Source: Parvularia atlantis
Lineage: Eukaryota; Opisthokonta; Rotosphaerida
NCBI GenBank assembly: GCA_943704415.1
Contig: CALSCO010001421.1
Location: 1 to 62,082, forward strand
Direction: 5' to 3'
Length of the DNA: 62,082 nt
Notes under the pieces: generated by a model
Told to the model about the DNA's origin: nothing
The model's database searches: none
Seen by the model: only the letters and a program-made list of their open reading frames with translations
Position numbers and translations under genes: made by a program
Shown: positions 21,648-57,700 of the stretch, in pieces
Layout: every line of letters begins with the position of its first letter
Position numbering within the stretch: the stretch's first letter is position 1

Positions 21648-24478
21648 CTACGCGCCGCCCCCGCTCGCGCTCGCGCGCACAAACTGGATGATGCGGTCGA
21701 TCGCCGCGTCCATGTACTCGTGCGACCAGTTGACGGCGTTGTTCGATACGACCGCGCGGATGTCCGCCGGCAGCTTGTCGGCCGCGGGCCACTCAAAATC
21801 GAACGCAACGGGAATGATGGGCTTGCGCGCGACAAGTGCCGTGGCGATCTCGCAGCGCATCCTGCGCCACCAAGGGGACGGCGGTGAGGTTGCGCTGCTG
21901 CACCGGTTGCGTTTGTGCGCACCAGTCGGTCTCGTCAGCACCTGTGGCGCTAATGCACCGGTCGAGGGCACCCTTGGTCAGGACGAGGACGAGGCAGCGC
22001 GACGCGTGCAGCTTCTGCACAAGTCTCTGCGAGCGCACGTGCGCACATCAATCAGCGACTGCCGCGGCACGCCACGCCGCGGACCGTGTCAAAGGCGCCT
22101 GTGCGAGCGCCGAGTGTGAGGGACGCGTAGCGGCGATCAATGCGCCGCGCGCACGCACCCGCGCCGAGCTCGTCCACGTCCAGGAACACGCTCATGCTGG
22201 CGAAGCGCAGGTGCACCTTGATGAGTTGCGCTAGCTGCGACCCGTTCGAGCGTCGGTACGAGACGAAGACGTCGTACGCGTGCTGCGGCGCGGCAGGTCC
22301 GACTATGCGCGGCACGGCGGCCGACGCTGCGGCCTTGCCCGCGCCGTCCTGCGCCGCCGCGGCCTCGAGCTCGGCGACCGCGCGCAGGATGCGCTTGCGG
22401 TGCATGGGGTTGGCGACGCCAAGCTTGACCAGGTCCTCGTCCGTCTGCGCGCGGCCGCATTAGCCCGCCCCATCAGCCCACCCACTGACGCGAACACACG
22501 CACCGTGTCTAGCAGCAGGTCGCCGTCCACCCAGCCGTTCTGGAACAGCGACGCGTACGTCGAGAAGCGCTGCTCGGCGGCCCACGCGGCGACGTCGTCC
22601 TCAGACCACTGCCGCAGCGGCCGGCCCAGCGCGCTCGCGCCGCCCTTGCTGCCGCCGCCGTTGAAAGTCGGCACGTGCAGGTCGAGCCGGCGCAGGCACT
22701 GCACGCCCAGCCGGTACAGCCACACGTCCGGCGCGAGGCACAGACTCGTGATGGCCCGGAGCATGTCCGGCTGCATCAGCAGAGCGCGCGTCTCGGGTAC
22801 CTGCCGCACCCGCAGTGCGTAAGCCGCCGCCTGCCGCTCGTGCAAGGCAGCCGCGCACCTTCTCGATCGTGACGCAACACGCGAGCGCCTGCCAGCCACC
22901 AGACAGGCGCACAATCGGGTCGCGCTCGGCGCTCAGGAGCTCGCGCAGGTACTCGATCGTCTGGGCGCGATCAGCACAGCAAAGCACGCCCGCACACAGA
23001 CAGCTCCGTCACACCTGCGCGCGGTATCGCGTCGTCTCCGAGAAGAACATAACGTCGTAGCCGTGGAAGAAACGCTCGACGTCCTGCGGTGTGCGGCGCG
23101 TCAGCGACAACGTGCCCGCGGAAACGCCCTGACGCCACACCTCAAGCGCGCCCGACTGATCCACGACGGCGCGGTTCGCGGGTGAGCCCTCGCGCAGGTC
23201 GACGATGAGGCACGCGGCCAGGAAGGCGATCGACTGCACGTGACCGGTGAGCGGGGCCAGCACGGACGGGGCGGACAGAGTGTGCGCACCGAGTCAGCCG
23301 CGGCCACGAGCGGGATGAGCCACTCGTGCGCCTTGAGCTGCACAAGCCTCGCGGCGCACTTGTGGTTGGCCGAGAACGTCTTGAGGGCGATGAGCGCGCG
23401 CCGGTTGAGCTGCTCGTTCAGGTCGCGGCACGCCCCGACCAGGCCCTCGAGCACGTCCGGCACGGCCACGCGCTCAAACAGGCGCGACTCAAGCGCCACA
23501 TGGTGCAGCACACCCACGACCGCCGTGCGGCCGTAGTCCTTGCCGCGCTGCTTGAGGATGCGCGCAAAAGTCTCGACGCCGCCGGCGCTCACGAAGCTGC
23601 GGCGCGGGGGCCGTGGGCCGTGAGCGCCGAGTGGGCAACGACGCTGCAACTGCGCACCTCTCGCGGCCCGTGTCGTTCTCGACCATGCTCCACAGAACCT
23701 TGGCGACGGGCGTGAGCAGCTGCTTGAGACGGTCATCCTTGAGCGCGGCGCCGTCGCCGCCACCGCCGAGCAGCTGGAGCAGGAGCGGGACAATGCCGGC
23801 CTTGGCGAGCGCGTCGAGGCGCTTGGTCGCGGGCGTGAGTGGGCGGTCGGCAAAGTTAGCCTGCGCCGGCGCCGGCTCAGCGGGCTGGCGGGCCGAGCGC
23901 GCACGACGTGCCTGGACCAGGTTGAGCAGGACCTTGAGGGTGGCGAGGACAATCTCGGTGCTGCCGGAGCGGAGCGCGGCGAGCAGCGCAGGGACGCTGC
24001 CGGGCGCGTTCACCAGTACGTCGCGCCTGCCGACGCCGCGGTGCTGAGCGGGCGATCGGGCCGCCGCACGCACACGCGCGCACCGCTCCGACTGCCGCGC
24101 AAAGTCGGCGTCGCTGAGCGGGCCGCCGGGCCACGCGGTTGTGCGCGCCATCGCCTGTACGGCCGCGACGCAGTCGGCGCCCCACTTGGCTGCACCAGCA
24201 AGCTCGATGAGCGTGCGCAGGGCCTTGTCCTCGTCGCCGCCGCCGCGGACTGGGCGTGGCGCGCCTGCGTCCATGGGCGCGGCCGCCGCAGCCTCGCTCT
24301 TTGTTGTGCCGCGTGTGAACTTGTTGAAGAGGCCGCGCGCGTTCTTGCGCGCGCCCGCAGACGCCGCCGCTGCTGCTGCCGCCGGCGCCCCATGCAGCGC
24401 CGTTAGCATCCCCGCGCTGGCCGCGCCCTCGGCGTCCGCGGCGCTCTCCGCGACGGTGTGCGTCGATGGCCTGTTCAT
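21648..24478 (-). CDS. SARM1: SARM1-like ARM-SAM-TIR protein (probable NAD+ hydrolase)
   Basis: Domain order as in animal SARM1. A low-complexity N-terminus is followed by armadillo-type helical repeats (TVLATLKVLLNLV, GIVPLLLQLLGGGG, VVGVLHHVALESRLFERV, NRRALIALKTFSANHKCAA). One SAM domain follows (QWSEDDVAAWAAEQRFSTYA through ANPMHRKRILRAVAEL), then a C-terminal TIR domain. The TIR is close to SARM1: YDVFVSYRRSNGSQLAQLIK, SVFLDVDELGAG, LVLVLTKGALDRC, DWMRCEIATALVARKPIIPV, FEWP, LPADIRAVV and WSHEYMDAAIDRIIQFVR. The Glu aligned with the NADase catalytic Glu (here CEI) is present. Animal SARM1 has two SAM domains; I find one. One exon is 14 nt (22085-22098). Start ATG 24478. About 13 exons and 750-800 residues. 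Confidence 0.94.
22085..22098 (-). other. 14-nt micro-exon of the SARM1-like gene
   Basis: It is flanked by a CGCACAG acceptor and a GTCCGCGG donor. Its inclusion turns the TIR loop into GAGAFDTRLVQKL, matching the SARM1 pattern EAGxFEDKLIQ and keeping the frame. Confidence 0.8.
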
Positions 24479-24845: not shown

Positions 24846-26567
24846 TCACGAGCGGTAGTCGGCGTTGATCTTGACGTAGTCGACCTGGCCGCGACGCGCG
24901 TGAGCCGCGGGCGCTCGAAGTGCGAGCGCGCCCCGCACAGAAAAGTCGCACGTCCACATGGTCGTGCTGACGCTGCCGAGGCCGAGGTCGATGCGCACCG
25001 AGATGTCCCGCTCCTTGAGGATTGCGCTGGCACGCGCCTCGTCCGTGTCGAACGGGACGCCGTTGCGCACAAGCTGCAGCTCGTCCGTGCCGGCCTCGCC
25101 CTTGCCGAAGAAGAGGTTGAACCTGTGCGTGCACGGCGTGGCTCAGTGTAGGCACATGCGGCGGGGGGAGGGGGGGAGCCGCGGCGCACTTGGTCGGGTC
25201 GACGGGCACGCCGCTGTAGCCGACGGCGCAGAGGATGCGGCCCCAGTTGGCGTCCTGGCCGTAGAACGCCGTCTTGACCAGGCTTGAGCGGCAGACGGTC
25301 GCGCCGATCTGCTTGGCCTCGGCGAGCGAGCGCGCGTTCTGCACGGTGCGTCAGGCATTGTACCGCGCGTTTGCACGACGCACCTGCACGCGCACGGTGA
25401 CAAACTTGGTCGCGCCCTCACCGTCGCGCACGAGCAGCTTGGCCAGGTCGGTCATCGTGCCTTGCAGCGCCTCCTGGAAGCGCGGAAAGTCAGGCGAGGT
25501 CTCGGTGACGGCCTTGTTGCCTGCAGTGCCCGCGTCACATATGAGGGCTCGCTTGCACGGCCACCACGCGCGTGAGAGCGCACCGGCGAGGCCGTTGGCA
25601 AGCACGACGGCCGAATCGTTCGTGGACGAGTCGCCGTCGACCGAGATCGCGTTGAACGAGCGCTCGGCGCCATGCGTCAGAGCGCGCTGCAGCCCGCCCG
25701 GCGTGACATTGCAGTCGGTCGCCAGGACGCAGAGCATCGTCGCGAGGTTGGGCGCGATCATGCCCGCGCCCTTGGCGATGCCCGTGATCGTGAAGCTGGC
25801 GCATCTAGCTGTGAGACGCGTATGTCGCCGCACGAGCCACGCACGGGTTGCCCTCGGCCGTCTTGTATGTGCGCGAGAGGAGCTTGGGCACGGTGTCGGT
25901 GGTCATGATCGCGCGCGAGACGTGCGACCAGTTGCTCGGGTCCAGCTGGTTCGCCGCGCTGCGCGTGAGATAGGCGCCCGCACATGGCGCCGCACGAGAC
26001 CTGCTTAGCCGCCTGCTCGATCCCCGCCGAGATCTTGTGCATCGGCAAGAACGGCCCGATTACCCCCGTCGACATCACGAGCGAGCGGCCCAGGCCGAGA
26101 CGGTGCACGTGGTCGACCATCGCCTGCCGCCCCGCCCCGCCACCGCGTCAGCCGTCCCATCGGCTGCTGCCCACGGCGGCGCCCCGCACCTGCGCGTCCG
26201 CGAGGCCCTGGTCGGCCGTGCACGCGTTGGCGCAGCCGCTGTTGATCACGACGGACGAGAGGCTGGTCGGGAACTCGCGCAGCATGCGCTGCGACACCTG
26301 CACCGGCGCGGCACGGAAGCTGTTCTGCGTGAAGACGCCGGCGGCGGCGCTGCGCGTGTGCGCGCTCGGGGGGTCGGCATCGCTGTCAGCGCGTACGCGC
26401 ATGGATCGCGCACCAGGGCGCGTCGGACGTGATCAAGGCCAGGTCGAGCACGCCCTGCGCTGCGCCGTCAGCGGAGAGGCTCCCGCACCCCCACCCCTTC
26501 GACGCACCGGCTTCTTCTTGACGCCGGCCGCGACCGCAGCCGCACGGAAACCACGCGCTGCTGCCAT
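24846..26567 (-). CDS. argJ: Ornithine acetyltransferase / glutamate N-acetyltransferase
   Basis: Bifunctional enzyme of the cyclic arginine pathway (acetylornithine + glutamate). The N-terminus [19 protein letters not shown] already contains the conserved GF-AAGVK block, so no long mitochondrial presequence is visible. Then [57 protein letters not shown] (the self-cleavage site, with Thr of ATML as nucleophile), [24 protein letters not shown] and the canonical end [12 protein letters not shown]. Six or seven exons. ATG 26567 fits the conserved start and leaves 39 bp to the divergent UBC7 gene. The gene indicates arginine prototrophy and argues against an animal source. Confidence 0.96.
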
Positions 26568-30986: not shown

Positions 30987-33900
30987 ATGTCTGCCGCGTC
31001 GTCGACCGCCGCGGGCCAGGCGCAGACGCCGGCGTTTGTCGGCAACCTGGTGGCGATCGGCAGCCGCGCGCTCACACTGCAGGCGCGCAAGGTCAACCAG
31101 GTCGCGCTCAAGCAGAACCTGGTGGAGAACGTCGGCAAGTGCGTTGCAGCGCGCTGCGCCGACGCGACTCCGTGCGGGGCGGGGCGGGGGCGCTCACCGG
31201 GCGCACAACACGGCGGCGCGACGCCACAGGATCTTCGGCAACAAGCTCAAGTGGAGCGAGTTTGTGGTCGAGCACATGAAGGAGGAGCACAGCGTGATCC
31301 GCGAGAAGGTCGTCAAGGTGCGCGCGCGCGGGGGATGGGGCCGTTGCGGCGTTTCGTGCGTCGCCAGGCGCTGACTGACGCACACGCGCGTGCGCTCAGG
31401 CCAAGCAGGCCTTCCAGGACAGCTACGACGGCCTGCTCAAGGGCGCCACGGCCGACCAGGACGCAGCCACGTTCTTCGCCAACTTCCTCGCGGGGCTGCG
31501 CCTGTTTGCGTCCAAGTGGTGTGCACCATGCACGCAACAGACACCCTCACACGCTCACACGCGCGCGCGCCCGCAGCTGCTTCGTGCACGAGACCGCGCG
31601 CTACGCCTACGTCGAGTGCGTCGAGACCGACCTCAAGCTCATGACGCGCTCGCTGCTGCTCTGCCGCGAGTCGATGAGCTCCAAGAACATGCTCGTGGAG
31701 AAGTTTGAGCTCGCGACGGTCGTTATCGCGCGCCTGGCCGAGACGTGCAGGTGCGTGCGCGCGCCGGTGCCGTGGTCGCGGGCGGCAGACCAACGAGCGG
31801 CCCGCGCCAGCCTCGTCGCCGCGCAAAGCACAACGTCCGAGCAGACGTCCAAGTCGCTGAACGGGCACTTTGACCACCTAAACGACCTCAATGAGCTGCT
31901 GGTGCGCCCGCGGCGGCGTGGGCGCGGGCGTGGGCATGCCCGCTCACACGCACGCGCGTGCAGGCCAACCGCATCAACGTCTACATTACGTCGCCGTCCG
32001 AGAGCGAGAAGGAGCACGGCTTCGCGGTCATCCGCACAATCCAGGTGCGTGCGCGCGTCGGCGGCCCGGCGCAAGCGGCACTCCATGGACGCCGCGCGCG
32101 CACAGGAGCTCGAGTCAATCGTCGAGGAGATCTTTGTGATGATGAACGAGGAGCGCGCGCTGATCCGGCGGCAGGACTTCTTCACCGAGTTCACCAAGCA
32201 GCTCGATGCGACGGTGGTGCGTGGTGGCGCGTGGCGGCCCCAAAAGCCACGCGCCTCACGGCCGCCCGCACGCAGATCCATAAGGAGATCCAGGCAGAGG
32301 CGCACCTCGGCGAGATCGAGCACATCCGCGAGCGCGGCGCCGTCAAGCGCCTCGAGATGCTCGAGGCCAAGACCGGCCAGAAGACGCCCGAGGCGCTGCA
32401 GAAGCTGGCCGTCGAGACCGACACGCTCGGCGAGACGATCGAGAACATCTACTACGCCATGTCGGACAGGTGCGTGCGCCATGCGACACCTTGGCGGGCC
32501 GAGCACTCACGCCGAGCGCTCACGCGTCACACAGTGATGCGATGGACCTGCGCTCGGTTGTGGCCGAGGCGCCCAATGTGATCAAGCAGATGGCGGAGGA
32601 GGCGCAGAAGGTCATCCGCGAGGAGGTCGGCAAGCAGACTGCAGCGACCAAGCAGGCCAAGACCGGTGCGTTGCCGCGTGCGAGGGGCGCGCGCGCGCCC
32701 CACCGACAGCTCGAGCCAGGGCTGACGAGCGAGACCACCGAGCTTGATACGCTCTCCAAGGAGGTGCAGGACCTCGCCAAGGGCCAGGTCAAGGCCGAGG
32801 CGATCGTCACGCGGCGGAAGAGGCGCGCGGCCCGCCCAGCTGGACCGTGCGCGGCTGACGTGCTAGCCGCTCGCGCGCAGCCTCAACACGATCATCAACC
32901 GTTCGCTCAGCCATCTCGACCCGAAGACGGAGCTGCTGCTCGGTCTCGGCGACGCGCAGAAGACGAGCAAGTGCGTCCCCGTTGGTGGCGGTGGTGTGCG
33001 CGCGCGTCTGACCGGCTGCGCTCGCGTTTCCAGGCTCAAGTCGCAGCTCAAAGACCGCATCAACGTCCAAGACGTATTCAGCGCGGACAAGTCCGACAAG
33101 GCCGCGCAGGAGGAGGCGCGGCGGCTGAGCAAGGCTGTGGACGACGTGCGGCACGACCTGACCGAGTACACGGCCGGGTTGGACCAGGCAAGGCCGTCGC
33201 ACGCTGCCTGTGCCGGGCGCCGCCGTGCTGATTGAACGCGTGGAGCACAGGATGCGGCGAGAAACCAGAAGATGCTCGCCGACCTGGACAAGGACATCGC
33301 TGCGCAGGTCGAGCAGGTCAGCAACCGGCTGATCGACGCGGCCAACGCGGCGCTCGCCGAGGGTGAGCCGCGCAAGCTGCCTTTGCTCGCGTGCTGACCC
33401 GCCCGCCGTCCAGGCCTGGACGACCGCAAGCGCCAGAGCCTGATCGAGGCGGTCGAGTCGGTCGAGACCTTTGCCGATATTGGCAGCGCGATGATGCCGC
33501 TGGCAGCCGAGGAGTCGTTCAACCCGGCCGAGGAGCCGCCGCCGCCGGCCGAGGACGTGCGCTGCCGCCTGGGGGCGCAGCACCCTGCTGTGCTGCTGCT
33601 GATGCGTGCGCAGGACCAGAGCCACATGATGAAGTTCAAGTACGACGAGCCGCCGCCGAGCTTTGTCATTACGCTCGACGTGGCCGGCCTGGACGGTGCG
33701 CATGTGCGCCACAGGACGTGCCCGCCGCTCACACCGCAGCGCCCGCGCCAGCCGAGACGCCGGTGACAGTGGAGGCCGCGGCAGCACCGGCGGCCATGCG
33801 CAAGGTGCTCAGCACCGAGGGGCCCGGGATGACGCGGCCCAAGCCGGTCGCCAAGGGCGACGACAAGTGCGTGCGCGCGTGGGCAGACAGACCCGTAAAA

Positions 33901-36742
33901 ATTGAGCACCGCGCACAGAGCCATGTCCCAGCTTGTGGCGTCGCCGTCGTTTCTGCTTGAGAAGGAGAAGGTCGAGGTGGTCGTCGTGCCGCTTGGTGCG
34001 CTTGACCGTGCTGTGCCTCGCCGCGATGACCCTCACGGCGCGCCGTGCAGATGACCGCAAGGGCGCGGGCGACAAGAAGAAGAAGGACGAGAAGGAGAAG
34101 AAGGAGAACGTGCGTGGACTGCGGTGCCGCGGTACTGCTCAGCGCTGACGGGCCCCCGCGCGCAAGGTGGGTGTCGTGCGCCGCGCCATACGCAACATCG
34201 AGCACATGCTCGAGGAGTTTGAAAAGTCGCAGCCCGAGGGGCTGCTGAAAGTGCTGCACCGTGCGTGCAGCAGAGGGTCCCCGTGCGCGCACATGCCCAC
34301 CAGAGCGTTGCGCAGGCCGCAAGGACCGCGACGTCGACGCCATGTTCACCACGCCGGCCGAGGGTGACCTGAGTTTGCGCAAGGACAGCAAGCTGTCGCT
34401 GTTCGAGGAGCAGCCGCGCAAGTCTGTCGTGGGTGCGGCCGCCCACCGGCGCTCGCTCGTGGCTGCGCTGACCCTTGGCCGTCGCGCAGGCGAGCTGATG
34501 CCGTCCAAGCAGTCGGGGTTGCGGCGCAGCTCGACGACGTCGAGCATGGAGGACGGTGCGCGCCCACTTGTTGCACTACAGGCGGCTGACGCGCACGCGC
34601 AGTCATCCCGCGGCCCGACGGGATGAGCCCCGAGTGGGTCAACTGGAGGCGACAGTGCCTCAACCTGTCGCCCGACGTGCGGGCGGGGCGGGCGGGGCGG
34701 CTGGTTGCGCGCGCCCCTCACAACGCCCTGGCTGCGCAGAACATCTGGAACGAGCTCGGCGTGCTCTCGTTCGGCAAGGAGGATGGCAAGCTGTTTGTCA
34801 AGGCCGGCACACTGAACCAAATCCTGATTCACTTGACCTCGCCGCTCGAGAACGCTGCCGACGCGCTGGCCGGTGCGTGCCCTCGCCCGACCGTCGCACG
34901 TGCCCCTGACTGCGACGCCGGCGCGGGCAGGCTCGGACTTTTACCGCACGTTCATGATGACGCTGCAGACCTTCACCGAGCCCGAGATCTTTGTGCAGAA
35001 GATGAACGAGCGGTGCGCGCGCCCGCCGATGCTTGCGCCTGTACTGTGCCTGACGACGGCTCGCGGGTGCAGGTACTGCGTGCCCCAGCCGCCGCCGGGC
35101 GTGTCTAAGGAGGCCTACGAGCAGGACGTGAAGAACCCGGTGCAGATGCGCGTGTGCAACCTGCTGTGAGCCGCGCCTGAGGCCGTCTGCCGCGACGACC
35201 AGCGCTCACGCCCGCGTCGCACAGCAAAAAGTGGATCATCGCCCGGTACGACCAGGACCTCGCGCACAAGCCGCGCCTGCTCGAGGACCTTGACCAGTTC
35301 ATCAACGACGTGGCCAAGGACAGCGAGTACCTGTCCAAGAACCTGCGCCAGTGCTTCAGCCTCTACGTGCGTCACCGCAGGCGAGCGCTGCGTGAGCTGA
35401 CGGGCGCGGCGCGATAGACGTCGGGCGAGCGCTTCCTGTACCACAAGAAGCTCGCGCAGGGCGACAACGCGCACAACGTGATGACGACCACGAACGACGT
35501 GCGCTGCCCCGCGCCGGCGGCGATGGCGCCTGCTCACGGGCGCCTGCTCAGGCGTCCATCTTCCACACGTTTGCGCACTTTGACCCGCGCGACGTCGCGG
35601 AGCAGCTGACGCTGATCGACGCCGAGAACTTCCGGGTGATTCGTGTACGCGCATGCGCGCTTGCCGTCCAGCCTTGCCGCTCGCGACGCTTGACACGCGT
35701 ACGGGCGCAGTTGTACGAGCTTGCGGGTCAGGCTTGGAGCAAGAAGGACGCCAGCGTCAAGTCGCCGAACCTGATGCGCATGATCAACCACACGAACCGG
35801 CTGTCGCTGTGGGTGGCGGCGTCGATCGTGCAGGAGCCCAAGTTGCGACGGCGGAAGAAGATCATGACCAACATGATCCTGCTGCTGCAGGTGCGGAGCG
35901 CGCGCGCTCTCGCGTGGCCAGGGCTGCAGCGCACACGCGTCTGCGCGCACAGTACCTCAAGAGCATCAACAACTTCCACGCGGTCATGGGCGTGCTCGCG
36001 GGCTTGTCGATGGCGGCCGTCTCGCGCCTCAAGCACACGATCAAGGAACTGCCGTCGCGCGTGCGCAAGGTGCGCGCGGCGGGCATGCCGCCCCGCCTGA
36101 CGCCCACACACCTGCGTGCGCAGATCCAGGAGGACATCGAGCAGGAAATGAGCTCGCTCGGGTCGTTCCGTATCTACCGCGAGAACATCAAAAAGGCGAC
36201 GGCGCCCGTGATCCCGTTCATGTGCGTCGGCGCCGTGTGCGACGCGCTGGCTCACGTGGCGGCGGCAGGGGCGTGATGCTCAGCGACCTCACCTTCGTCG
36301 AGGACGGCAACCCCAATATGACCGAGAACGGCCTGATCAACTGGATCAAGCGCTCGCTGCTCTACAACATCCTGTCGCAGGTGCGTCGCGGCCCCCTTGC
36401 GCTTTTAGCACGGCGCGCCGACCGCCGTGTGCGCGCAGTTCACCGAGTACCAGCGCGTGTGCTACTACACCTTCCCGGAGAAGCGTGTCAAGGACGCGAT
36501 CCTGGCCTCGATCGAGCAGGCCCAGACGACGCCGTCGCAGCTGTACAACGGGTCGCTGCAGATTGAGCCGCGCAACGGCGAGCTGCCGCCCGAGTCCGGG
36601 GTGCGTCGCTGCGGCCCGGCCGTGCGTCGCAGCGCTCGCTGATCTGCACCCGCGCGCCGCGGCGCAGGCAAACTCAGCCTGGTCCGCGTTCTTCAACCGG
36701 AGGCAGTCGGTCGTCGTGACCGGCCCAGGCCCGTCCAAGTGA
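30987..36742 (+). CDS. Large Ras guanine-nucleotide exchange factor (RasGEF_N + RasGEF)
   Basis: About 25 short introns; roughly 1,350 residues. The N-terminal ~900 residues are mostly charged helix (for example LKLMTRSLLLCRESMSSKN, EIEHIRERGAVKRLEMLEAK, LKSQLKDRINVQDVFSADK) with no domain I recognise, plus Pro/Ala linkers and a Lys/Glu run. The RasGEF_N module reads FVKAGTLNQILIHLTSPLEN, DFYRTFMMTLQTFTEPEIF, RVCNLLKKWIIARYDQDL. The catalytic Cdc25-homology domain follows: FDPRDVAEQLTLIDAENFRV, SPNLMRMINHTNRLSLWVAA, YLKSINNFHAVMGVLAGLS, PVIPFMGVMLSDLTFVEDGN. It activates Ras by GDP release. MSQLVASPSF near 33,920 could start a separate downstream gene, but frames continue across it. Confidence 0.92.
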
Positions 36743-36847
36743 GCCTCCGCTGAGCGTGCTGAAGGTGCTGTCGAATGTCGAGTGGTTTTGGCGCGCGCCG
36801 CTGGGCGTTCAAACGAGAGCGCCACCGGTTGCCCAAGAGAGCGCGCA
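36743..36847. promoter_or_regulatory. CDC7 promoter interval between RasGEF stop and CDC7 start
   Basis: A 105-bp same-strand spacer holding an E2F-type site at 36786-36795, 52 bp before the CDC7 ATG. Confidence 0.5.
36786..36795. promoter_or_regulatory. E2F-type site upstream of CDC7
   Basis: TTTTGGCGCG (then CGCC) fits the E2F consensus TTTSSCGC. Cdc7 is an S-phase kinase, so the site is functionally plausible. Confidence 0.55.
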
Positions 36848-38851
<2,004 letters not shown>

Positions 38852-39448: not shown

Positions 39449-42400
39449 ATGAACCTGTCAGACGCGCGCATCTCGGTAACGGCGCGGCGGCCGTCGAGCA
39501 CGCGCGACATCCACCTGCCGAACCAGGTGCGCCACGTGCGCGCGCGCGCGCGATCGCCGGCAGGTTGATGCTCCCCCGCACGCGCGCATGCACGCAGCTG
39601 GAGGATGTGAGCGTCGTCGCGCTCGACATCGGCGGGAGCCTGTCCAAGGTCGTGTACTTCTCGCGCAAGCAGGTCGACTACGACGCCGGCGACGGCTCGC
39701 CCGGCGGCCGCCTGCACTTTGAGCGCTTCCCGAGCAAGCCGCTGGACGAGTGCCTGCGCTTCGTCGAGCGCATCACCGAGGACAGCCGGCGCGCGGGGCG
39801 GCCGCTGGTGCGCGCGCGCACACGTCACGGCGCACGGCCGCCCTTCCCACGCGAGCGCGCGCGCGCACACGCAGGTCATCCGCGCCACCGGCGGCGGCGC
39901 GCACAAGTACGCGGACGAGATCTACCGGCGCCTGGGCATCCGCCTGCAGCCGTTCGACGAGATGCGCTGCCTCATCGTCGGGCTCAACTTTCTCCTGCGT
40001 GAGGTGCCGTATGAGGTGCGTGCGGGCGCGAGCGCGAGTGCGTGCGCGGGAGGCCGATCGGGGGGCGGCTACGCGCAGGTGTTCACGGTCCAGCCGGACA
40101 CGTCGGCCATGAGCTTCCAGGAGCTGCCGCGCTGGGACGGCGTGTTCCCGTACATGCTCGTCAACATCGGCTCGGGCGTGAGCATCCTCAAGGTCACCAG
40201 CCCGACCACGTACCAGCGCGTCAGCGGCACGAGCCTGGGCGGCGGCACGCTCTGGGGCTTGCTGTCGTTGCTGACCGACTGCAAGGCGCGCGCGCGCGGC
40301 GACGGCGCCCCGGTCGCCGCTGACGCTTCGTCGTCGTCATTGCAGGACTATGACTCGATGCTGGCGCTGGCAACGCAGGGCGACAACCGCAACGTCGACA
40401 TGCTCGTGGGCGACATCTACGGCATGGACTACGGCAGCATCGGGCTCAAGTCGACCACGATCGCGTCGTGCTTCGGCAAGGCGCGCGCCTAGCCCGGCCA
40501 TGTTCGAGCGCGCACACTGACAGGCGCCGGCGGCACTGCAGTGCTTCCAACGCGAGAGCGGCAGCGACGCGCCCAAGCCGCAGTTCCGCCCCGAGGACAT
40601 CTGCAAGAGCGCGCTGCTCATGGTGTCGAACAACATCGGCCAGGTGCGCTTTCCTGCGCGGGCCAGTCGCACGCTCGAGCCCTGACGGCCGCGCGCCCAG
40701 ATCGCCTACCTGAATGCGACCGTGCACAACATCTCGCGCATCTACTTTGGCGGGTCGTTCATCCGCGGGCACGTCGACACGATGCGCACGATCTCGTACG
40801 CGATCAGCTTCTGGTCCAAGGGCAGCGCGCAAGGCGCGTGCGCCCGCGCGCGCAGCGATGCCCGCTTCACTGACGCCGCTGTGGTTTGTCGTCGTGACAG
40901 CGCTTTTCCTGCGCCACGACGGCTACATCGGCGCCCTGGGCGCGTTCCTGGTCGAGGATCTGCCGCCGCCCGACAGCGGCGCGGACGATTCGCGCAGCGC
41001 CGACCTGCAGGCGATCTCGTCCGATGACGCCAGGGTGGTGGAGACGCCGAACCCGATGGCGCGTGGCGGCTCATTCATCGAGAACTTTGCGCGATCCAAC
41101 TCGATCTCGGACTCGTCGCCCGGGTCACTCGGTTTCCTTGACACGTGCGATCCGCTTCACAGTGCCGCGCGCGCGCGCGCCCCTGACCTACCACGCAGTA
41201 CGCGCAACAACCTTGTGGCGTGCCCGCTCCTGGCCGACCTGGCGACCTACGAGCCGGATACGCTGCACCTCGAGAGCCACGAGCGGCGGCAGTTCTGGCT
41301 CAAGTCGTTCGAGGACTCGATCGACAACACCATCCAGGTGCGCACTCACGCTCCCTTCGCAAAGGTGCTCGCTGCTGACCGCCGGGCACGCCCGGCCAGG
41401 TCGTTTTGTCGTCGATGGGCGACACGCCCGAGCTGCGCCAGAAGACGGACGAGTTTGTCAAGTGCGGTGCCGGCTGTTGCTGCTGCGCCGTGCATGCTGA
41501 CGTGCACTTGCGCACGAGGGCGTACAAATCGTTCCTGGCGCGGCTGCAGAGCGAGCCGGGCGCGTTTGGCGGGCTGTCGGTGCGGAGTCTGCTGGACGTG
41601 CGTGAGCAGGTGCGCACTTTCATGCGATCGGCCGCGTGCACTTGTCCTGACGCGTGCCTGGCCGCAGTGCCTGCACGAGTACGTCTCGGCGGACCCGCTC
41701 AAGCAGCTCAAGCACCGCGAGAACGCGCACGCGATCAGCTCACTCGCGGGGCGGCTCGACTTCCTGCGCGGGCTTGACGAGGCGCGCCGGCAGCGCGAGA
41801 TCATCGCCGGCCTGCTGTCGGGTGCGTGCGCATGGCAAGCGCGGCGGGGACTCAGCGACGACTGAGCGATCGCCAGGCAATATGTTTGACTGGGGCGCGC
41901 GCGAGGTCGTCAAGGAGATCAACAAGGGCGGGCTCGACTTTGACAACGCGGCCGAGCTGATTCACCGCGGCAACGCCGAGCTCGACTACACCGAGGCGTT
42001 CTGCCGTCGGTGTGCCGCGTCCGTCCGCGCCGTGTGCGGCGCGTCGTGACCACTCCCGCATGCAGGCTCAACGGCGGGCCGGCGCACACCAAGGCCATCA
42101 TCTTTGCAGACAACTGCGGGCAGGACATCGTGCTGGGCATTGTGCCGTTTGCGCTGTACCTGCTGGGACGGTGCGCGCGCGCGCGCGTCATGTGACCGGG
42201 TCGGTGGTGGGCCTTACGGCGAGGCCGCGGCGCGCAGCGGGACGCAGGTCGTCATCGCCTGCAACTCGCGGCCCGCGCTCAACGACATCACCCACAGCGA
42301 GATGCTCAGCCTGGCGGGCGCGATCTCCGAGGTCAGCGCCGAGTTCCAGGAGGCGTACCGTTCCGGGTGCGCGCGCGGTGTCGGGCGCTGTGGACACGGC

Positions 42401-42736
42401 GGGCTGAGCACGGCGTCGCAGGCGCTTGAGCGTCATGCCGTCGGGTCAACAGTCGCCCTGCCTCAACCTCGCGCGGATCAACAGCACGCTGGCCAGGGCG
42501 TGCAAGGACGCAGACCTGCTCGTGCTGCACGGCATGGGCCGCGCGATTCACACCAACCTGCGCGCACGGTGCGCTCGCGCGTTCACACGCACCCCACGTC
42601 AACAGCTCACCACCCGCGCAGGTTTCGCTGCGACACGCTTAAGCTGGCCGTGATCAAGTCGGCCGTCGTCGCGCGTGAGCTCAATGCGCGCATGTACGAC
42701 GCCGTGGTGCTCTTCGAGCCGGGAGCGACGGCGTGA
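39449..42736 (+). CDS. PANK4: Pantothenate kinase fused to DUF89 phosphatase (PANK4/plant PANK2 type)
   Basis: About 13 exons, roughly 800 residues. N-terminal type II pantothenate kinase: [72 protein letters not shown] and [20 protein letters not shown]. The Glu of DEM and the Arg of QRV align with catalytic residues that vertebrate PANK4 has lost, so this kinase looks active. After an acidic linker comes the DUF89 domain: [16 protein letters not shown]-like start, [73 protein letters not shown] and the C-terminal Arg/Glu helix. DUF89 of PANK4 dephosphorylates 4'-phosphopantetheine-type metabolites, giving push-pull control of CoA synthesis. Confidence 0.95.
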
Positions 42737-46774: not shown

Positions 46775-48143
46775 ATGGCGGCGCGTCCTCTGTCTCTGAC
46801 GCGCGTGTCGGCAGCGCGCTGCGTCCCCGAGCGCGGCACCTCCCCTCCCACCCGCGCCCCGGCACGTGCGGCGGGCGTCCGCGCTGCGCCCGGCAGCAGC
46901 ACCATGGCGTGCGCGCGCTGGGCGCCGGTCGCGCTCGTGCTCGCCCTGGCGGCGGCGGCGGCGGCGCGTGCTGCCGCGCAGGTCAACGGCTCCGGGTCCA
47001 ATTCGGAGGGGCCCGACGCGGGCGCGCCCACGGCGACGGTGATCACGGTCAGCACGGTCGTGTTCATCCTCTACCTGGCCGTGTTTGTGCTCATCGTCAC
47101 GTTTCTCGTGTTCTACGCGTCCAACGTGCTCGCGTCGCTGCTCAACCTGCTGCTCAACCTGTACCTTTGGCGCAAGTACAAGACCTACGTCGAGTTCACC
47201 GCGGTCAAGCTGTCGATCCTGGGCGGGCGCGTGCTCTTCCGCCGCCTGCGCTACGTCACGAAGGACTACTCGGTCCGGATCGAGGGTGGCTACATCACCT
47301 TCCGCTACTGGCTCTACACGCCGCGGCATCCGCAGGACATCACCATGGGCCCTGGCACGCGCTCGCGCATCGCCGTCCACGCTGAGGGCGCCGAGTACTT
47401 TGTCTACAACCGCTCCGAGGCCTACGACCGCCTGCGCGCGGTTCTGGCCAAGCGCGAGGCCGAGCGCACGGGCACGGCCCTAGCCGACGAGCTGCGGCGC
47501 CTGCTCGACCCGTTCGGCGAGCCGGTGCTGCCCGGCTCGGCTGCTGCCGCGGCGCCGGCCGGCACGCCGCCATACCTCCCGCTCGACATCTTCATCGACC
47601 GCGGCGCGATCGTCCTTGGCAGCCCGGCCACGACCACGCTGCTGGTCGCGTCGTTCCGCTATCTCACGGGCCTGTACACGGCCATCGACGGGCGCTCGCG
47701 CCTGGATAAGCTGCGCTACGTCCTGCGCATGTCGATCGAGCAGGCCGACATCAGCTTCTCGACCAACTTTGACTACGGCCTCTCGGCCGAGGACCGCGAG
47801 CGGCCCGGGCGGAGCGCGATCGAGACCGGCATCAGCGCCCTGACCATGTCGCCGCTGTGGACACTGCTTGGGCGTGCCGTTACGTTTGCGCCGCCGTCGC
47901 ACCAGCAGCCGCACCAGCAGCCGCAGCAGTCGCAGCCGCAGTCGCTCTCGCAGGCGGCCCTCGTCGACGGCGCACCGGCAGTGTCGCCAGCGCGCGTCCG
48001 CGCCAAGTCGTTCTTCCGCCGCAAGGTCGTCTCGCCCAAGGCCTCGTTTGCGACCGACTCGTCCGCGGGCGCGTCGTCGGACGAGGCCCCAACATCCTCG
48101 CCGCCGCACGACGACGGCGCCTCTCCCGCGCACGACCCCAGCG

Positions 48144-48175
<32 letters not shown>

Positions 48176-51100
48176 GCGGAAGCGGCAGCCGCACCTGCGC
48201 CGCCCACAGACTACGAGACGCGCCGCAGCCGCCTGCGCCTGTTCCGCAACCGCGGGCGCAGCGCGCAGCGCATGCGGGCCAGCGCGGCAACGCTCTCGAC
48301 CGGCGACCTGCGGCGCAACGAGGTCGTCAACCTCGTGGGCACGCGCATCGCCGCGAGCATGCACGGCCTGCCCCGCTTTGCCTCGGCGCACTTTCTCCAG
48401 ACGCTCGACACGACCTCAACGCTGACGCTGCAGTCGCTCGCTGCTGCCGCGGCCTCCGGGCCCGTGCGCCAGACTTCGTCAGGCTCGTTCAGGGTCGGCG
48501 GCGACGGCGAGTGTGGCGCTGCCCCCGCCGCCGCAGCGGCACCCGAGCAGCCGGCTGCAACGCCCGCCGTGCAGAAGGAGGACGTGGCGGTGACGGGCGA
48601 GTACGCGCGCGTGACAACGCTGCTCTCGGCGTCGCTGCTGCTTGTGACGTACATCGTAGACGACCCGGGCGTGTGGCCGGACGCCGCACCAGACACGCCC
48701 GCTGCGCCGGCACGCAGCGGCGTGACCGATGACGACAGCGACGGCGACGATGGCGACGCGAGCGACGTGGCGCGCTCGGCAGGGTCTTCGTTCGTCTCGT
48801 ACCAGCAGGGCCACCGTGCGAGCGATGACTCGCGCACGCCCGAGACGATCGAGATGACGGCGCTCGGCGGCACGCGCACCGCGGCTGCCGTCTCTGCTGC
48901 TGCCGCCGAGGCGCGGAGGCGCACGCCCGTCAGCCGCGTGTCGTCGGGCGAGGAGGCGCCGGGCAGTGCCAAGTCGCCCGCGTCGACCAAGCGCAGCCTC
49001 GAGCTGTCCCTCTCGGCCGTCGCGCCGCCGGTGTGGCGCATCGACCTCGTCGTGCACAACGCCGTGCTCAACTACGGCCCGTGGGCCGACCGGCAGCGCG
49101 TGCAGCTCATGGGCGTCTTCTTCCCGTTTGACTACGAGGACCTGCCCGTGCGCACCCACCCGCGCCCGGGCCATTTACGCCAACACGAGATGTTCCAGCT
49201 GTCGGTGCGCTTCGAGGGCGACTCGGTCTTCCGCATCCCGTTTCGCGAGGCGTCCAAGGACGCGGTCTTTGGCAGCAAGCCGTCGAGCAAGTGGGCCTCG
49301 CGGCGCTACGCCTGGCTCGATTGGCGCTTCCGCTCGGGCTCGACGCTGTACTACCGCATGCCGTACGTGTTTGACGCCGACGGCAACGCGGTGCAGCTGC
49401 GCGTGGACCTGCAGAAGTGCGCCATCGTCTCGTCCATCAACTACGCGCTCCTGGCCGACTCGGCGGCCACGCGGCTGACGGCGGCGATGCACTACCCCGT
49501 GCGCTGGAACGAGCCCAAGACGTGGCGCTACGACCTCGTGCTGCAGCAGCCCAAGGTGCGCGTTTTGCTGGTGATGGTGGCGACGGGGCGCTCACGCAGC
49601 GGCAGGTGTACCTCTTGCGCGATCACGCCACGCTGCTGCAGGACATGTCGCGCGACTTTAGCAGTGGCCCGGTCGAGACCCGCCCAACGTACTTTGCTCC
49701 AACGGGCTACCAGGTGACCGTGCGCTTCGAGGACGGCGTTACGGCGCTGCTGTGCGCCAACGAGGGCAATATCATCGACCAGCCCAACGACGACGCCGAG
49801 AACGTCTTCTTCCAGCTGCGCGCGCCGACCATCACCGTCGGCACGACGCTCGGGCCATACGGCCTGCGCGATGTCTACACGAGCGTGCCGTTCCGCGTCG
49901 AGGCGAGCGAGGGCGTGCAGGGCCACCTGCTGCTGCCGCCGTCGATCACGGCCGAGGAGTTCCGGCATAAGGACGAACCGGCGCCGGCCGTGGTCGTGGC
50001 GCGCTCGCTGTCGGTCGAGGGCGACTATACCTACTTCTATTCGGCCGAGCAGCGCATGCTGCCCGAGGCCTCGGTCGGCCCGCAGGTGGACACGTTCACG
50101 CTGACCGTCGGCGGCGAGGCCATCAAGGCCAACCTGTTTGGCATCTACCTGCACTACCTCCTCGTCCTGCGCGACAACTACATCGGCGCGCACATCAACT
50201 ACGTCACGTCGGACGAGTTCCGCGCGCAGCGGCCCGACAGCACCGCGCCGCGCCGCACTGCTGCGAGTGCGCCACCGATCGGCAGCGCCGGCGCCGGCGG
50301 CATCACGTCCGTGCTCTCGCTCGCCGACAGCGTCACGCCCGGCCCGCCAGCAAACGCGTTCGAGGTGCACGTCATGCTCGACCTGTGCGACATCGCCGCG
50401 TTCCTGCCCGCGCACCTGTACCAGCGGCAGGAGTGCATGTCGGTGCACACGCGCCGGCTGCGGCTCGACATGCGCTACGTCAGCCTGTTCATCCAGCTCA
50501 CGCTCGAGGTCGAGCCCGTCGTGCTCGGCGGCGAGGGCCTCCTGCGCCCAGACGACCTATTCCCGCTCTGGCCGCTTGAGTTGCCCCTGCCAGCCAACCG
50601 CACCAACTGGCCCGCGGTCAACACGCCCACGACACCGCGGGCACCGTGGCGCGTCGAGCGTGTGGGCATCGACCGCCAGCGCCTCGTCGTTACGCGGCTT
50701 GATCTCAACGTGTGCTTCATGCTCGGCCCGGGCGTCGCCGAGCCCACCTACCGCCAGAAGCTCGACGTGCACGTGGGCGAGATTCGGGGCGAGCTCGCGC
50801 TGGCGCAGGTCGACAAGCTGGCCGACTGGGCGCGCGCCTTTGTGTACCAGACGCGCAACCTCGACAACACGCTCGACGCCGACGCGGCGCTGCGTCCCGC
50901 GGACCCGAGCGACCTGCCCACGGTCGCGCAGCTCAAGGACTGGCAGGAGGCCGGCGTGACGCCCCCGTGCTTCGCGCTCATCTGGACCTCGGCCGACGTA
51001 CGCGTGGGACCCGTTCGCTGCGCTGTGGTCGCAACAAAGCCGCTCGTGGCCTCGCGGCCGCCGAGCGCGGCCGCCCTCAAGCACGACCACGTCGAGGCCA

Positions 51101-54100
51101 CCGCGCTCGAGTTGCGCCTGCCGCACGGCGCACGCCTCACGACGGACGATCGCGTCTGCGCGCTCTACCACTCGACAGTCGAAGCGCACGTCCCGAGTGT
51201 GACCTGCCGCCTGCTCGTGCAGACGGTGCGCCCTGTCGCCGGTGCGGCGCGGTCAAGCTGCTGACACCGAAACGTAGTCGCGTGTCGCCGCCGTGCCGCT
51301 GACGTGGCTGGAGGCCGCGTCGCTCTCGACAGCCTTGACGGTCTGCATGCGCTCCCGGCAGCCAGACTGGCGCGGGTACTACGAGCGCCAGCTGCTGTAC
51401 CTGACAATCAACGACGCGCTCACGCAGCGCCTCGCGGCAGTGCTCGCTCCCGCGGCCGGTGCGCGTGCCAGCAAAGCACTCAAGCCGCTTGCTGACACTG
51501 TTGTGCAGACACCGCAACGGGCGCGTCAATGCCCAGCGTCGTTGTGCCGGCGCGGCGAGCGTTCGTCGTGCGCGAAGCATCGCTGCTGACGCCGGTGCAC
51601 GCGAACGGTGCGGCCTCCGCACACAATGCGGGATCAGTGCTCAACGCGCGCACATCCAGGCGACGGCGACACAGAGCGCTCCAGCAGCGAGCACGATGGC
51701 TCGGACAACGGCGATCGGCTCGCTCGCGAGGGCGACGGTGTCAGTGACGACGGCGATGAGGACGACGGCAACGACGCCCGGGGCGCCAGCGAGCCCAGCG
51801 ACGTCGACGAGAGCGTGTCGGTCAAGGCCGCAGCCGCCACGAGGGCGCTGCCGCAGACCCGCCCCGTGCCCGCGCGACCGGCATCCCCGCTGCGTCCAGT
51901 GGTCGCCACCGCCTCGCTCGTCCCTGCAGCCACCAGAGCGCCCGCGAGGACTCGCACGGCCGCCGCCGACGAGGACGACTCCAGCTCAACCCAGTGCGTG
52001 CGGTCGGCAGACATTTTCCCTGTACTCACATCTCGCTGGGCGGCGTGCAGGACGTTCTACACGGCGTCGTCGTCACAGTCGTCCAGCGGCAGCCGTGTGC
52101 GCGCTTCCGACGAGCAGCGAGCGGCCACGACCGAGCCCCCCCGGCCGCCTGCAGCGTCAGCTGCCGCAGCAGAGGTGCCCAGCCACGTAAGCGTCACCGC
52201 GTCTGCGCTGCTGATGCCGCGCGCGCACGCGACGTACGCGCAGCCACCACCAGCGCCCCCGCCGCCACAGCCGCAGAAGCACAAGCAAATCGTTCTGAGC
52301 TGGCCCGGCGTCGCCGAGTACGCGCCGTACCTGCACGGCTTTGCGCCAGCGCAGCGCCGGCCCATCCAGGCCAACCGCGTCTTTGCTCCGCCCGTGGTGT
52401 TTGAGAGCCGGCAGTTGGAGGTGCGCTTCGCGGCGTGGTGTGTGGCGAACTGATCGTGCCTGTGTGCGCAGGGTGGCGAGACGGCGGACGCACCGTCTGA
52501 ACGTGCGCAGGCGCCCCCCCTGCGCGCTATGGCAGCGGCGCCGTGGCTGCTCGACGAGGCATGCACAGGGACGCACCTGGTCGCGCGCGTCGACACGGCC
52601 GTGGACGCCTTCCTGTGCCCGCTGGTGATGTCGTGCGCGCTCGTCTACCTGCAGCATGTGCTTGCGAAGGTGCGCCGCCCGTGCAGTCGCTGCTGCGTCG
52701 GCTGACCGTGTGGTGCCAGGTGCCCGACCCCGAGAGCATGCTGGACGGGCTGGAGACGGCCAACCTCGCGCAGCTGACCGTCGCGCCGCCGACACCGGGT
52801 CTGCACGCCACGCACGTCGACGTGTCCGTGCCCGCTGTGCGCGTGCACGTCGTGCAGCTGCTGCCGGCCGAGGCCGCCGTGCTCGGGCCGCTCGCGGGCT
52901 GTGCGGATGACGACGCCCGTCCTGGCGCCGGCCTGCTGGCTGCCGAGCTGGAGCTGCTGGGCGTCACGGCCGTGTACGCCGTGCAGACGCCGCAGCACGA
53001 CAAGGCGCACAGGCACGGCGACGTGATGGACTGGAGGGCGCACTGCAACTTTGGCATCGACCGCGTTGGAGTGGAGGTGCGGTGCGCGAGCGACCGCCCG
53101 CTGCCTGCCAAGCGTCTGGCGCGGCCGTCGGACCAGCTGCGAGGCGACCGAATCGCGACGGCGTTTCTGCCTGTCGTCGCCCAGGCGGACGTGCTCACGA
53201 TGGCCCTGGACGTGCGCCTGCAGCCGCACGAGCAGGAGCTCGTGTCGCCGACAAACGCTACGCTCGCAACCGTGAACGTGACGCTGGCCGAGGACGCGCT
53301 GGCGCCGCTAACCGTGGCGGCACTCGGGTGGGTGGAGCCGCTGGCCGCGGCCGTGACACCGATAGCGACGCACGTGAGCGAGCGCGGCCGGCGGCTCGAG
53401 CAGCGCCTGGTCGAGGCACTGGCACACGTCTCGCGCTACCTGCGCGCGCGGGACTTTTCGCTCGACCCGGCCTTCCTCGACCGCCCGTCCAACATGTGGC
53501 GCCTCGGACACCGGCACTTCCAAAACGACGACGCGTGGAAGCTGATGCACCACCTGCGCAACGTCTGGCGCCTGCTGTCGCGCTCGACGCGCGAGGGCCT
53601 CGTCTTCCGGCTGCACGACTTTGCGCAGCGGCACGCCGTCGGCGAGAGCGTGGCTAAGGCGCTCGAGATCGACGCGCCATCGGACGCCGCCGTGGTGGAC
53701 GTGCTTTTTCGCCGGGCCGCGCGGCTCATGCGCGACTGGCGCACGTGGGACGTGGACAACCTTGCGCGCTGCCGGCTGCTGCAGACGGTGTACGAACGCC
53801 CGGCCGCGAAGCCGCAGTCGTCGACCTCGGTCGGCGCGGCGTGGCTCGCGGCAGAGCAGCGTATCGACGTCAACCTCGGACGGTGGACAGCCGTGCTAAT
53901 GCTCGAGCGCGAGCGGAATGATTCGCAGAGCGACAACGACGACGACGAGACGGTGCTGCGCGCGTTCGAGTGTGTGCTGCATCCGACGCGCCTGCACGCA
54001 ACGCTGACCAGCGCGGCATTGGGTGCCGCGACGTCTCGTCGGTCGTTGGCCGTGATGGCGACCTGCGCGGGCGTGCGCGTGGACACCGAGCCCGTGCTGC

Positions 54101-54697
54101 TCAACCTCTTCCCGCTGCTCGACCACGTCGCGCATATGTACTACGACCAGCGCACGGTGATGCTGCAGCAGGAGGCCAACGGCAACGCGAGGCCCGCCGT
54201 GACGTTGTGGGGATCGCCGCTGCGCAAGCGTCGCAGCGTCGCCCACACCGCCCGCGGCACTGCGGCCGACGACACACGACCGGCCACGGCGCGCTTAACA
54301 GCGCCCACGCAGCCGCCGACGTCGTCGCGCGGGCTCAACGCTTCGACGTATCGTAGCCAGCCGAACGAGCGCGAGGAGTTTGAGATGGGGCCCGTCTCTC
54401 ACCGCTCAACGGGCAGCGGGCGACCCATCGCACTATCGGCGTCTGCGAGTGGCCTCCGCCCCGTGGCGCTGTCGGCATCGGGCACCGGACTGCGTCCCGT
54501 GGCACTCTCGCCATCTGGGGGCGGTTTGCGCCCGCTGTCGCTGTCGGCCTCGGTCGGCGATGTCGCGGCTGCCGTCCAGCGCGAGGCGAGCACGACCCGC
54601 CGACCGCAGACGCAGACCGACCGCATCGGCGTGAGCCCGTTCATGCGCGAACTGTCAGACGCGCTCGACGGGGCTGACGAGGGCCTGTGGGCGCATC

Positions 54698-54734
<37 letters not shown>

Positions 54735-57700
54735 CGATGGCCCCACAGACGACGGTCGCCTCGAGCAGCTCGCGACGGCGCACTCGCTCACGGAGGCGGT
54801 CGAGGGGGTCGACGTGCGTGCGACGCAGATGCCGCTCAAGGACCACGACGGCACCGCCAAGCCGCCGACTGTCGACGCCAGCGCAGTGCCGTCTCCTGCA
54901 GCCACACGGCCCGTGCAGCTGCTCGGCTTGCCAGCGGACGTCGCCTACAGAGTCGTGCTTCAGCTCGAGTCCTCGCACGTTGTCGCGCGCCTACCGCCCC
55001 TCGCCGCCACTCTGTCGGCCGGCGCCATCGTGCTCGGGCTTGAGAGTGGCGCCAACTGCCCAATACCGGAAGCCGAGGCCGGCGCCGCGGACGACGCAGA
55101 GCATGCTGCGGCCAACGATACGCCCGCGCCCGCGCCGTCGCCGCCGCAGCAGATGGCGACCGCGACCGCATCGTGCCGCAGCATCAACCTCGAGCTCGCC
55201 GGAAAGCTGCCGGCGGCGCCGGCGGCATCGGAGAACGGCGACCGCGGCGGCGGCGGCGACGAGGCGGCTGGGCCGCGCAGCTTTGTCGTCGCGTCGGTGC
55301 GGATGGGGCCGGTGTGCCTGCTGTACTGCTCGGTGATCAGCGCGGCGACGCCGGCAGCGCACGGCTCGATGTTTGCGACGGTGAGCGCGCTGCAGCTGGA
55401 CAGCCCGACTGACTTCTTGCTGCTGCTCGAGCTGTTTGACGCGTCCCAGCGCTCCTTCCGCGAGGTATTCGCGTTCCAGGCCGCGCACTACGCAGCGGTG
55501 CAGCGCAAGCGGCTCAAGCAGCAGCGCCGACGCGCCCAGGAGAGCCCGCTGGCGAGCCCTGCGGTCGCGGCCAAGCCGGCACCGCCACCGGTGCGCACAC
55601 GCTCCATGTCAACGTGGGCGCTCAGCCAGCTGTCGATGCCGATGCCGGACGACGCGGGCGTCGACGGTGGGCGTGCGGCCGCGCCTAACGGCAAGGGCGC
55701 CGTCGGTGACGACAACACCAAGCGCGTGCGGCTGCTGCGACTGGACGTGCGGCTGCTCGTGCAGGCCGTCGGGCTGCGCCTGCGGCCGCTGCCGTCGCTC
55801 GTGGTCGAGTACAGCCTGCCGTCGGTGTTTGCGGAGCTGGCGACGCACCCGGTCGCGGGGCAGATCATGCGTGCGACGGGCCGCGCGGCACCGCAGAAGC
55901 TGTCTGCGACCGTGTCGCGGCCGTCGTCGCTCGACGGGGCCGCGGGGTACCTCGACCGCCTGCCTACCAGCTCGCGGCGCATCCTGGAGACGCACTTGGA
56001 CACGCCGATCACGATGACCGTACCGGGCGTGAAGGGCTCGGGCGTGCTGCGCGGCACGACGGAAGAGGGCCCGGCAGGCCCCGCAGCGAGCGCCTTTGTG
56101 AGCACGGCCGTGGTCGAGCCGCTGCAGATCAGCCTGCGCGAGGACCTACTCTACCGGCTGCTGTCGGGCCAGGCAATGCTTTCGGGCGAGCTCAACGCGC
56201 TCTTCAAGGCCGCCGTGCGCTACCGCCGCCAGCAGAAGGCCGAGAAGCGCCGGCGCCGGCTGCTGAAGCAGCAGCGGGCGCACGACGCCGAGCAGCTGCA
56301 GCTGCAGCAACAGCTGTCGTCGCCGGCCACGGCCACGCCGCCGGTCGCGGGCATACAGCCGCCCGCAGAGCCGCCGGGCCTCGCGCTGGACGACAGCGCC
56401 GCCGTCTCTGTCACCGCGACGGTCTTCGTGCGCCGCATGGGCCTGAGCCTAATGAGCCCCGCGTGCACAGCGATCCTGCACACGGACCTCATGCGCGCGC
56501 ACTACTCGTCTGCGCCGCCTGTGCCGAGCGACGGCTTTCGCGCCGACGTCGTGCTCCGCTCGCTCTCGGTGGCGCTTGTGCCGGCGAGCGGCGGGACAGC
56601 GAGTGGCGCAAGCTTTGACGAGACGCAGCTGCGTGCGGTGGCGCAGGCGTACCTGCTCCTCGACGTGTCTGCGCACAACGCGGTCGACAGCGTCGGGGCG
56701 GTGCAGGCGGCCGCACCGGCAGCGGCGTGCCTGGCCGTGACGCGTCTGCACGGCATGGTGCAGCCAGGCGCGCCGCGGCTGGGTGCGGCGCTGTGGGTGC
56801 ACTACGCGCAGCGCGTGGCGTGGGCGCAGGCCGTGTCTGAGTTCCTCCTGCACGAGTCGTCGCTTGTGCCGGCCGCGATGCGGGCCTTCCGCAAGTGGCA
56901 AGGGCTCAATCCGGACGGCTCGGCGCCTAGCAGCGGCGGCACCGGCAGTGGTCGTGCGCGCCGTTCCCTCGCGGCGCAGCGCTCAGCGTCGCTCTCGTCC
57001 CTGCCGTTGCAGATGGCGCCCTCGTTCCTCTCGTCGCGCCTGCTTGTGCTGGAGTTGTCGTCGGTCGTGCTGGCGCTGTCACTGCGGGCGGCGCCGCGCA
57101 GCCGGCGGGGCGCGCGAGTGTTTGTGGTGGATGAGCCGGCGCCGGCGCTAACGCTGTCGATCGACAACCTCCGGGCGACCTCGCGCGAGGGCCTCGGCTC
57201 GCTGCAGGTGTTTCTGCGCATGCTGTCGATCCAGGTCGTGGACCAGTTCAACCCCAACTCCACCGCGAGCTTTGCGCTCGCTTCGGCCAAGCCCGCACCC
57301 GCGCCCGAGCCCGTCGCCGCCGCCGCGGGCAGCGTGCCAGCCGGCTCCGGCTCCGGCTCGGGCAAGCAGCAGCCCAAGGACGGCGAGCACGACTACCGCA
57401 ACATGGTCTGCTTGCCGCACCTCGAGGGCCGCCTGCGCTCGCAGTCCGAGCTCGGCCCGTCTGGCCAGCGCGTGCGCATGACGGTGGACGCCAAGGTGCG
57501 ATTTGCCTGTACCGTGTGTTGCGCGTGCAGGGGCTGACGCGTGCGTACAGGCTGCCGGCCTCTGCGTGTCGGCCGACCCGGACCTCGCGTCGCGCGTCCT
57601 CGACCTGACCGACGTGCTCGTGGCCGACAGCGAGGTGTGCCTGCCGGGCGCAATGCGTTGCAGGTCGTGTCTAAGTGCAGCTCTTTTGCGCAGCGCATGT

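Follow-up and report, generated by a model that had tools for sequence, protein, structure and literature searches.

The window, by which we mean the whole stretch of 62,082 nucleotides of DNA analysed here, encodes on its minus strand a protein in which an armadillo-like (ARM) region, one SAM domain and a TIR domain follow each other in the order found in SARM1 (Table 1). Excision of 10 GT-AG introns (57, 57, 61, 56, 54, 58, 59, 60, 58 and 61 nt; range 54-61 nt) joins the exons to a single open frame, which is free of stops between the ATG at position 24478 and the stop codon at 21650-21648 and whose N-terminus is rich in Ala and of low complexity. For the intron at 22858, a length of 28 nt was discarded in favour of 58 nt, which preserves the frame and matches the other introns in length. 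The microexon on the BB-loop side of the TIR domain gives a gapless fit with human SARM1 (AGAFDTRLVQKL / AGKFEDKLIQSV). A simple gene finder, seeded with the codon usage of the SARM1-like gene, then trained on its own predictions and allowing introns of 46-89 nt, returned the identical start, stop and strand and a near-identical set of introns; its model differed at the optional in-frame intron and at the microexon, where it spliced differently.

Table 1. Features of the ARM-SAM-TIR gene and its ArgJ neighbour (positions in the window; aa, residues of the 749-aa protein)
Feature	Position	Strand	Remarks
Whole CDS, ARM-SAM-TIR protein	21648..24478	-	749 aa, 11 exons
ARM-like region, about aa 84-500 (limits approximate)	22636..24229	-	Exons 1-7; Pfam Arm 139-169 (1.6e-4)
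Optional in-frame intron, 57 nt	23861..23917	-	If retained, protein of 768 aa
Exon 7	22504..22800	-	End of ARM region and start of SAM on one exon
Single SAM domain, aa 508-574	22355..22614	-	Exons 7 and 8, one intron inside; Pfam SAM_1 509-570 (6.9e-15)
Exon 8	22159..22444	-	SAM end and TIR start on one exon; no room for a second SAM
TIR domain, aa 601-745	21663..22276	-	Exons 8-11, three introns inside; SARM1 TIR match; Pfam TIR_2 603-714 (2.5e-10)
Microexon, 14 nt, TIR BB-loop side	22085..22098	-	Gives AFDT; alignment to human SARM1
Codon of catalytic Glu E683 (human E642)	21849..21851	-	Alignments
ArgJ gene, complete, neighbour of the SARM1-like gene	24846..26567	-	Pfam ArgJ 4e-133

The preliminary description of this DNA had proposed the SARM1 domain order and had named separate transcripts for the ARM-SAM and TIR exons as one finding that would speak against it. 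The order is borne out by the spliced frame, by phmmer and by Pfam, and separate transcripts are ruled out because single exons bridge the ARM/SAM and the SAM/TIR junctions; the three domains thus belong to one transcript. When the whole protein was searched against the PDB with phmmer, human SARM1 was the best match (E 5.2e-56), followed by its worm orthologue TIR-1, and the SARM1 match consisted of three colinear stretches covering the ARM region (21.5 bits), the SAM domain (28.1 bits) and the TIR domain (140.3 bits). Global profile alignment of the ARM-SAM part with that of the human protein (hhalign) gave a probability of 97.9%. Beyond SARM1 and TIR-1, a bacterial TIR-SAVED protein (E 0.002) was the sole TIR protein among the PDB matches listed, and no TIR of plant TIR-NLRs or of animal TLR/MyD88 proteins fell below E 0.01 in this search.

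A bacterial gene or contamination can be dismissed, as the SARM1-like gene is spliced like its neighbours; the introns of this gene and those modelled by the gene finder in the neighbouring genes are very short, mostly with GTGCG donors, and the GC content of the window is 70%. The window further encodes PMT, RasGEF, RPC5, a PanK and an ARMT1-type phosphatase, and the ArgJ gene already noticed in the preliminary description is complete. Animals are not known to possess ArgJ, and it is mainly for this reason that the genome is apparently non-animal. RasGEF and PMT presumably argue against plants, and the gene content is consistent with a eukaryote from the animal-fungus-amoeba side. The window also encodes RPS4, whose best matches (377-370 bits) are chains with vertebrate-like RPS4 names (e.g. 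'S4, X isoform'), followed by plant-like (about 359 bits) and yeast (332 bits) chains, all of which we take to be such from their molecule names. Scans of the window for tRNAs and with Rfam gave no match, and no rRNA was found.

Several other genes in the window, all on the plus strand, deserve mention in their own right. At 39449-42736 a pantothenate kinase (Fumble) is followed by an ARMT1-like phosphatase, as in animal and plant PANK4; the gene finder gave two models here, which may be one gene. At 30987-38851 a RasGEF and a protein kinase domain lie in one gene-finder model that may represent two merged genes. From its appearance we guess that a predicted gene of about 4650 aa at 46904-61840 possibly encodes a bridge-like lipid-transfer protein (Csf1/BLTP kind).

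The vertebrate-like RPS4 matches and the existence of choanoflagellate SARM1 homologues (Richter et al. 2018, PMC6040629) would be compatible with a normal animal SARM1 whose host is an animal with an unusual genome, or with a choanoflagellate SARM1 covered by that study. We regard this as unlikely in view of the complete ArgJ, of introns as uniform as 54-61 nt at 70% GC and of two features of the protein itself described below, the single SAM domain and a bacterial-like BB loop.

Human SARM1 carries two SAM domains in tandem (SAM1-SAM2), of which only one was found here, as had been claimed before on first inspection. Pfam detects a single SAM, SAM and TIR are separated by 26 residues within one exon, and a concealed second SAM can be ruled out since no intron is longer than 61 nt. 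The domain resembles SAM1 and not SAM2 of human SARM1 (Smith-Waterman scores of 119 vs 52). When PDB matches were ranked by single domains, SARM1 SAM1 came first (37.6 bits) and liprin-beta-1 second (34.6 bits); liprin-beta-1 had the higher total score, but this is summed over three SAMs. Liprin-beta-1 is also the best non-SARM1 match of human SARM1 SAM1 itself.

The ARM region is clearly ARM-like and can be aligned in order with that of human SARM1 (Smith-Waterman score of 115, vs 40 +/- 6 and a maximum of 67 for shuffled sequences). The ARM region alone does not prove descent from SARM1, since ODAD2 (28 bits) scores slightly above SARM1 (24 bits) in phmmer. In SARM1 the NMN/NAD pocket of the ARM domain is formed by W103, R110, E149, Q150, R157, H190, K193, S316, D317 and G321 (PMC9780360), and we compared these positions with the window protein over 72 alignment settings. 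H190 corresponded to His268 in all 72, and R110 to Arg in 54 and to Lys in 18. S316/D317 appeared as Ser/Glu in 41 of the 72 settings. K193 was never matched by Lys (Leu in 51 settings, Ala in 12, a gap in 9), and the remaining pocket positions shifted between settings, the alignment being unstable. Judged from these alignments, Lys193 has probably been lost. The earlier proposal of a SARM1-type metabolic sensor that predates or lies outside animals thus holds in part: ArgJ suggests a non-animal genome, although non-animal relatives of this kind have already been published, whereas NMN/NAD sensing would be no more than possible, given the unstable pocket alignment and the probable loss of Lys193.

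The TIR domain retains the residues of the catalytic pocket, namely Y607, R608, R609, D633, G640, F642, W679, E683 and H726. The preliminary description had aligned the Glu of the motif CEIATAL with the catalytic residue and had pointed to WSHEY near the end; E683 indeed corresponds to human E642, and SHEY is common to the window protein and human SARM1. The Glu is nevertheless not a specific sign of SARM1: it is found in 78 of 78 aligned bacterial relatives, and Glu and SYRR motif are both present in all 77-78 of them. The kept residues support NAD cleavage and, being equally kept in bacterial relatives, are not SARM1-specific. For the SARM1 group (group 24), a BB loop E(R/K)LEAG, an EE loop H(D/E)YQ, a beta-E Trp and the alpha-C His73 have been described as characteristic TIR features, and residues one, two and six of the BB loop as important for catalysis in SARM1 orthologues (PMC7075850). 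The BB loop of the window TIR reads DELGAG (aa 635-640), so that the first (E to D) and the second (K to E) of these catalytically important residues are changed. Its EE loop, HEYM, agrees in three of four positions, W724 corresponds to the conserved human W683, and human His640, which we took as the equivalent of His73, is replaced by Arg681.

The two changed BB-loop residues, given their reported importance for catalysis (PMC7075850), might suggest an enzymatically silent adaptor, which would use TIR-TIR contacts for signalling and cleave no NAD+ in the cell. This seems very unlikely to us, as the Glu and every pocket residue are conserved and Glu is the commonest residue at BB-loop position 2 in bacterial relatives (24 of 78), many bacterial TIRs having NADase activity (PMC7075850).

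The impression of a TIR strikingly close to SARM1 was confirmed: the window TIR is 48.6% identical to that of human SARM1 (150 bits), its best PDB match. Bacterial TIRs for comparison came from a contig search with three sequences, which yielded 126 relatives, of which 80 loci were kept; an earlier contig search with two query sequences had returned zero TIR relatives. The phage collection contained no TIR match, and the plasmid collection contributed two Paraburkholderia records (35-36%). The bacterial TIRs are 30-47% identical to the window TIR, with best scores of 122 bits, and the human SARM1 TIR scores higher against the window (150 bits) than against the best bacterial relative found (139 bits). 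In a tree of 91 rows, 89 of them bacterial, the window TIR and human SARM1 are sisters with a support of 95/95, and they remain so (98/87) after removal of long branches, with 78 bacterial TIRs. Both trees consist of bacterial TIRs, the window TIR and, as the one animal sequence, human SARM1; with a single animal SARM1, the grouping has good but not final support. The TIR tree called for in the preliminary description favours SARM1 over bacterial TIRs in both versions, but in an AU test a pairing of the window TIR with an Armatimonadetes TIR (L008) survives with p 0.27, the other alternatives lying at 0.035-0.08. Twelve TIR positions, including GSQLA, KVHL and W683, are common to the window and human proteins and rare in bacteria, and phmmer found no ARM or SAM in any of 95 bacterial or viral TIR ORFs.

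The surviving bacterial pairing, together with identities of up to 47% between bacterial TIRs and the window TIR and a BB loop resembling bacterial ones, raises the question of convergent assembly. In this case a bacterial TIR of the same broad clade would have been acquired by a separate transfer and joined to an unrelated ARM-SAM protein, and the domain order would have arisen twice. The higher ARM score of ODAD2 and the nearly as high SAM score of liprin-beta-1 would be in line with such an origin. It has to be set against two trees that pair the window TIR with SARM1, the 12 shared residues rare in bacteria, the agreement in all three domain types and in their order, a best single-domain SAM match to SARM1 SAM1 and bacterial relatives that all lack an ARM or SAM match; on balance we consider it improbable.

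In animals, the enzyme SARM1 destroys NAD and thereby kills nerve fibres that have been injured. This makes it a drug target in nerve degeneration; the origin of its layout of sensor, oligomer and enzyme is unsettled. As far as sequence comparison allows us to judge, the window protein is probably a SARM1-type, presumably autoinhibited NAD+ hydrolase that goes back to the same ARM-SAM-TIR ancestor as animal SARM1 but has diverged from it since. We class it as a SARM1-like sister type rather than as SARM1 proper, because tandem SAMs, the SARM1 BB loop and His640 were looked for and found to be absent or altered; on present evidence it would work like SARM1. By analogy with SARM1, the ARM region might keep the TIR domains apart at rest, while the single SAM could hold several copies together by head-to-tail contacts. 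A stress signal would then release the TIR domains, which would assemble and cleave NAD+; the products would be of the ADP-ribose type, and strong activity might lead to cell death. In an organism that is probably single-celled, the likely use would be cell suicide or signalling triggered by stress or infection and not axon loss. The NMN/NAD ratio might or might not act as the trigger.

A more far-reaching scenario, which we put forward as tentative and on the whole rather doubtful, is that the complete ARM-SAM-TIR switch is much older than animals and choanoflagellates, that it began with one SAM and a BB loop of bacterial type, and that the animal line later gained tandem SAMs and the ARM pocket for NMN/NAD sensing; the ARM region described here would then sense another signal leading to cell suicide. 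A single-SAM, probably non-animal relative could help to separate the original parts of the system (NAD cleavage, autoinhibition by the ARM region) from animal additions (the tandem-SAM ring, NMN/NAD sensing), and bears on the question whether NAD-destroying cell suicide of the SARM1 type predates nervous systems.

Among known systems, plant TIR-NLRs and animal TLR/MyD88 TIRs have the TIR fold in common with the window protein. The bacterial TIR proteins collected here (L005-L084, from Clostridia, Bacteroidota, Armatimonadota, Acidobacteriota and others) have the same catalytic residues and, as given above, TIRs of 30-47% identity; unlike the spliced window gene with its ARM and SAM parts, they are without ARM or SAM match, and their TIR stands alone or is fused to other parts. 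By eye, five of these loci (L008, L014, L009, L048 and L017) show varied layouts around a SARM1-type TIR: a long N-terminal part with a P-loop-like motif and a C-terminal TIR, a TIR with repeats, two TIRs per protein, or a TIR with a methyltransferase-like part. A viral contig (L001; IMGVR_UViG_3300035502_000938, first 6.4 kb) encodes a group of three TIR proteins in a stretch of about 4.5 kb, perhaps a defence island; one of the three shares 41% identity with the window TIR.

A survey of 2020 described SARM1 TIRs as metazoan and did not find bacterial homologues (PMC7075850). The available part of a preprint places SARM1-like TIRs of choanoflagellates, amoebae, green algae, dinoflagellates and bacteria in a 'clade 8' (PMC13142454), and it is with this preprint, not with the survey, that our bacterial loci agree. 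The clade 8 sequences are, like the window TIR, SARM1-type TIRs outside animals, reported in that part as TIR-domain sequences in a tree. The choanoflagellate SARM1 homologues of Richter et al. 2018 (PMC6040629) are likewise non-animal relatives with the catalytic Glu, the comparison being with their description in the available part of that paper. SARM1 relatives outside animals are thus already published (PMC6040629, PMC13142454). With animal SARM1 (human SARM1, C. elegans TIR-1, Drosophila dSARM) the window protein shares the ARM-SAM-TIR order, nearly half of its TIR residues (human protein) and, in human numbering, the catalytic Glu, the SYRR motif, Asp594, Gly601, Trp638, Trp683 and His685; it differs in having one SAM instead of SAM1-SAM2, DELGAG instead of EKLEAG in the BB loop, Arg for His640 and a longer ARM region, whose NMN/NAD pocket is uncertain. 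To the relatives already published, the present case adds a full gene that combines a single SAM with a bacterial-like BB loop and an altered ARM region.
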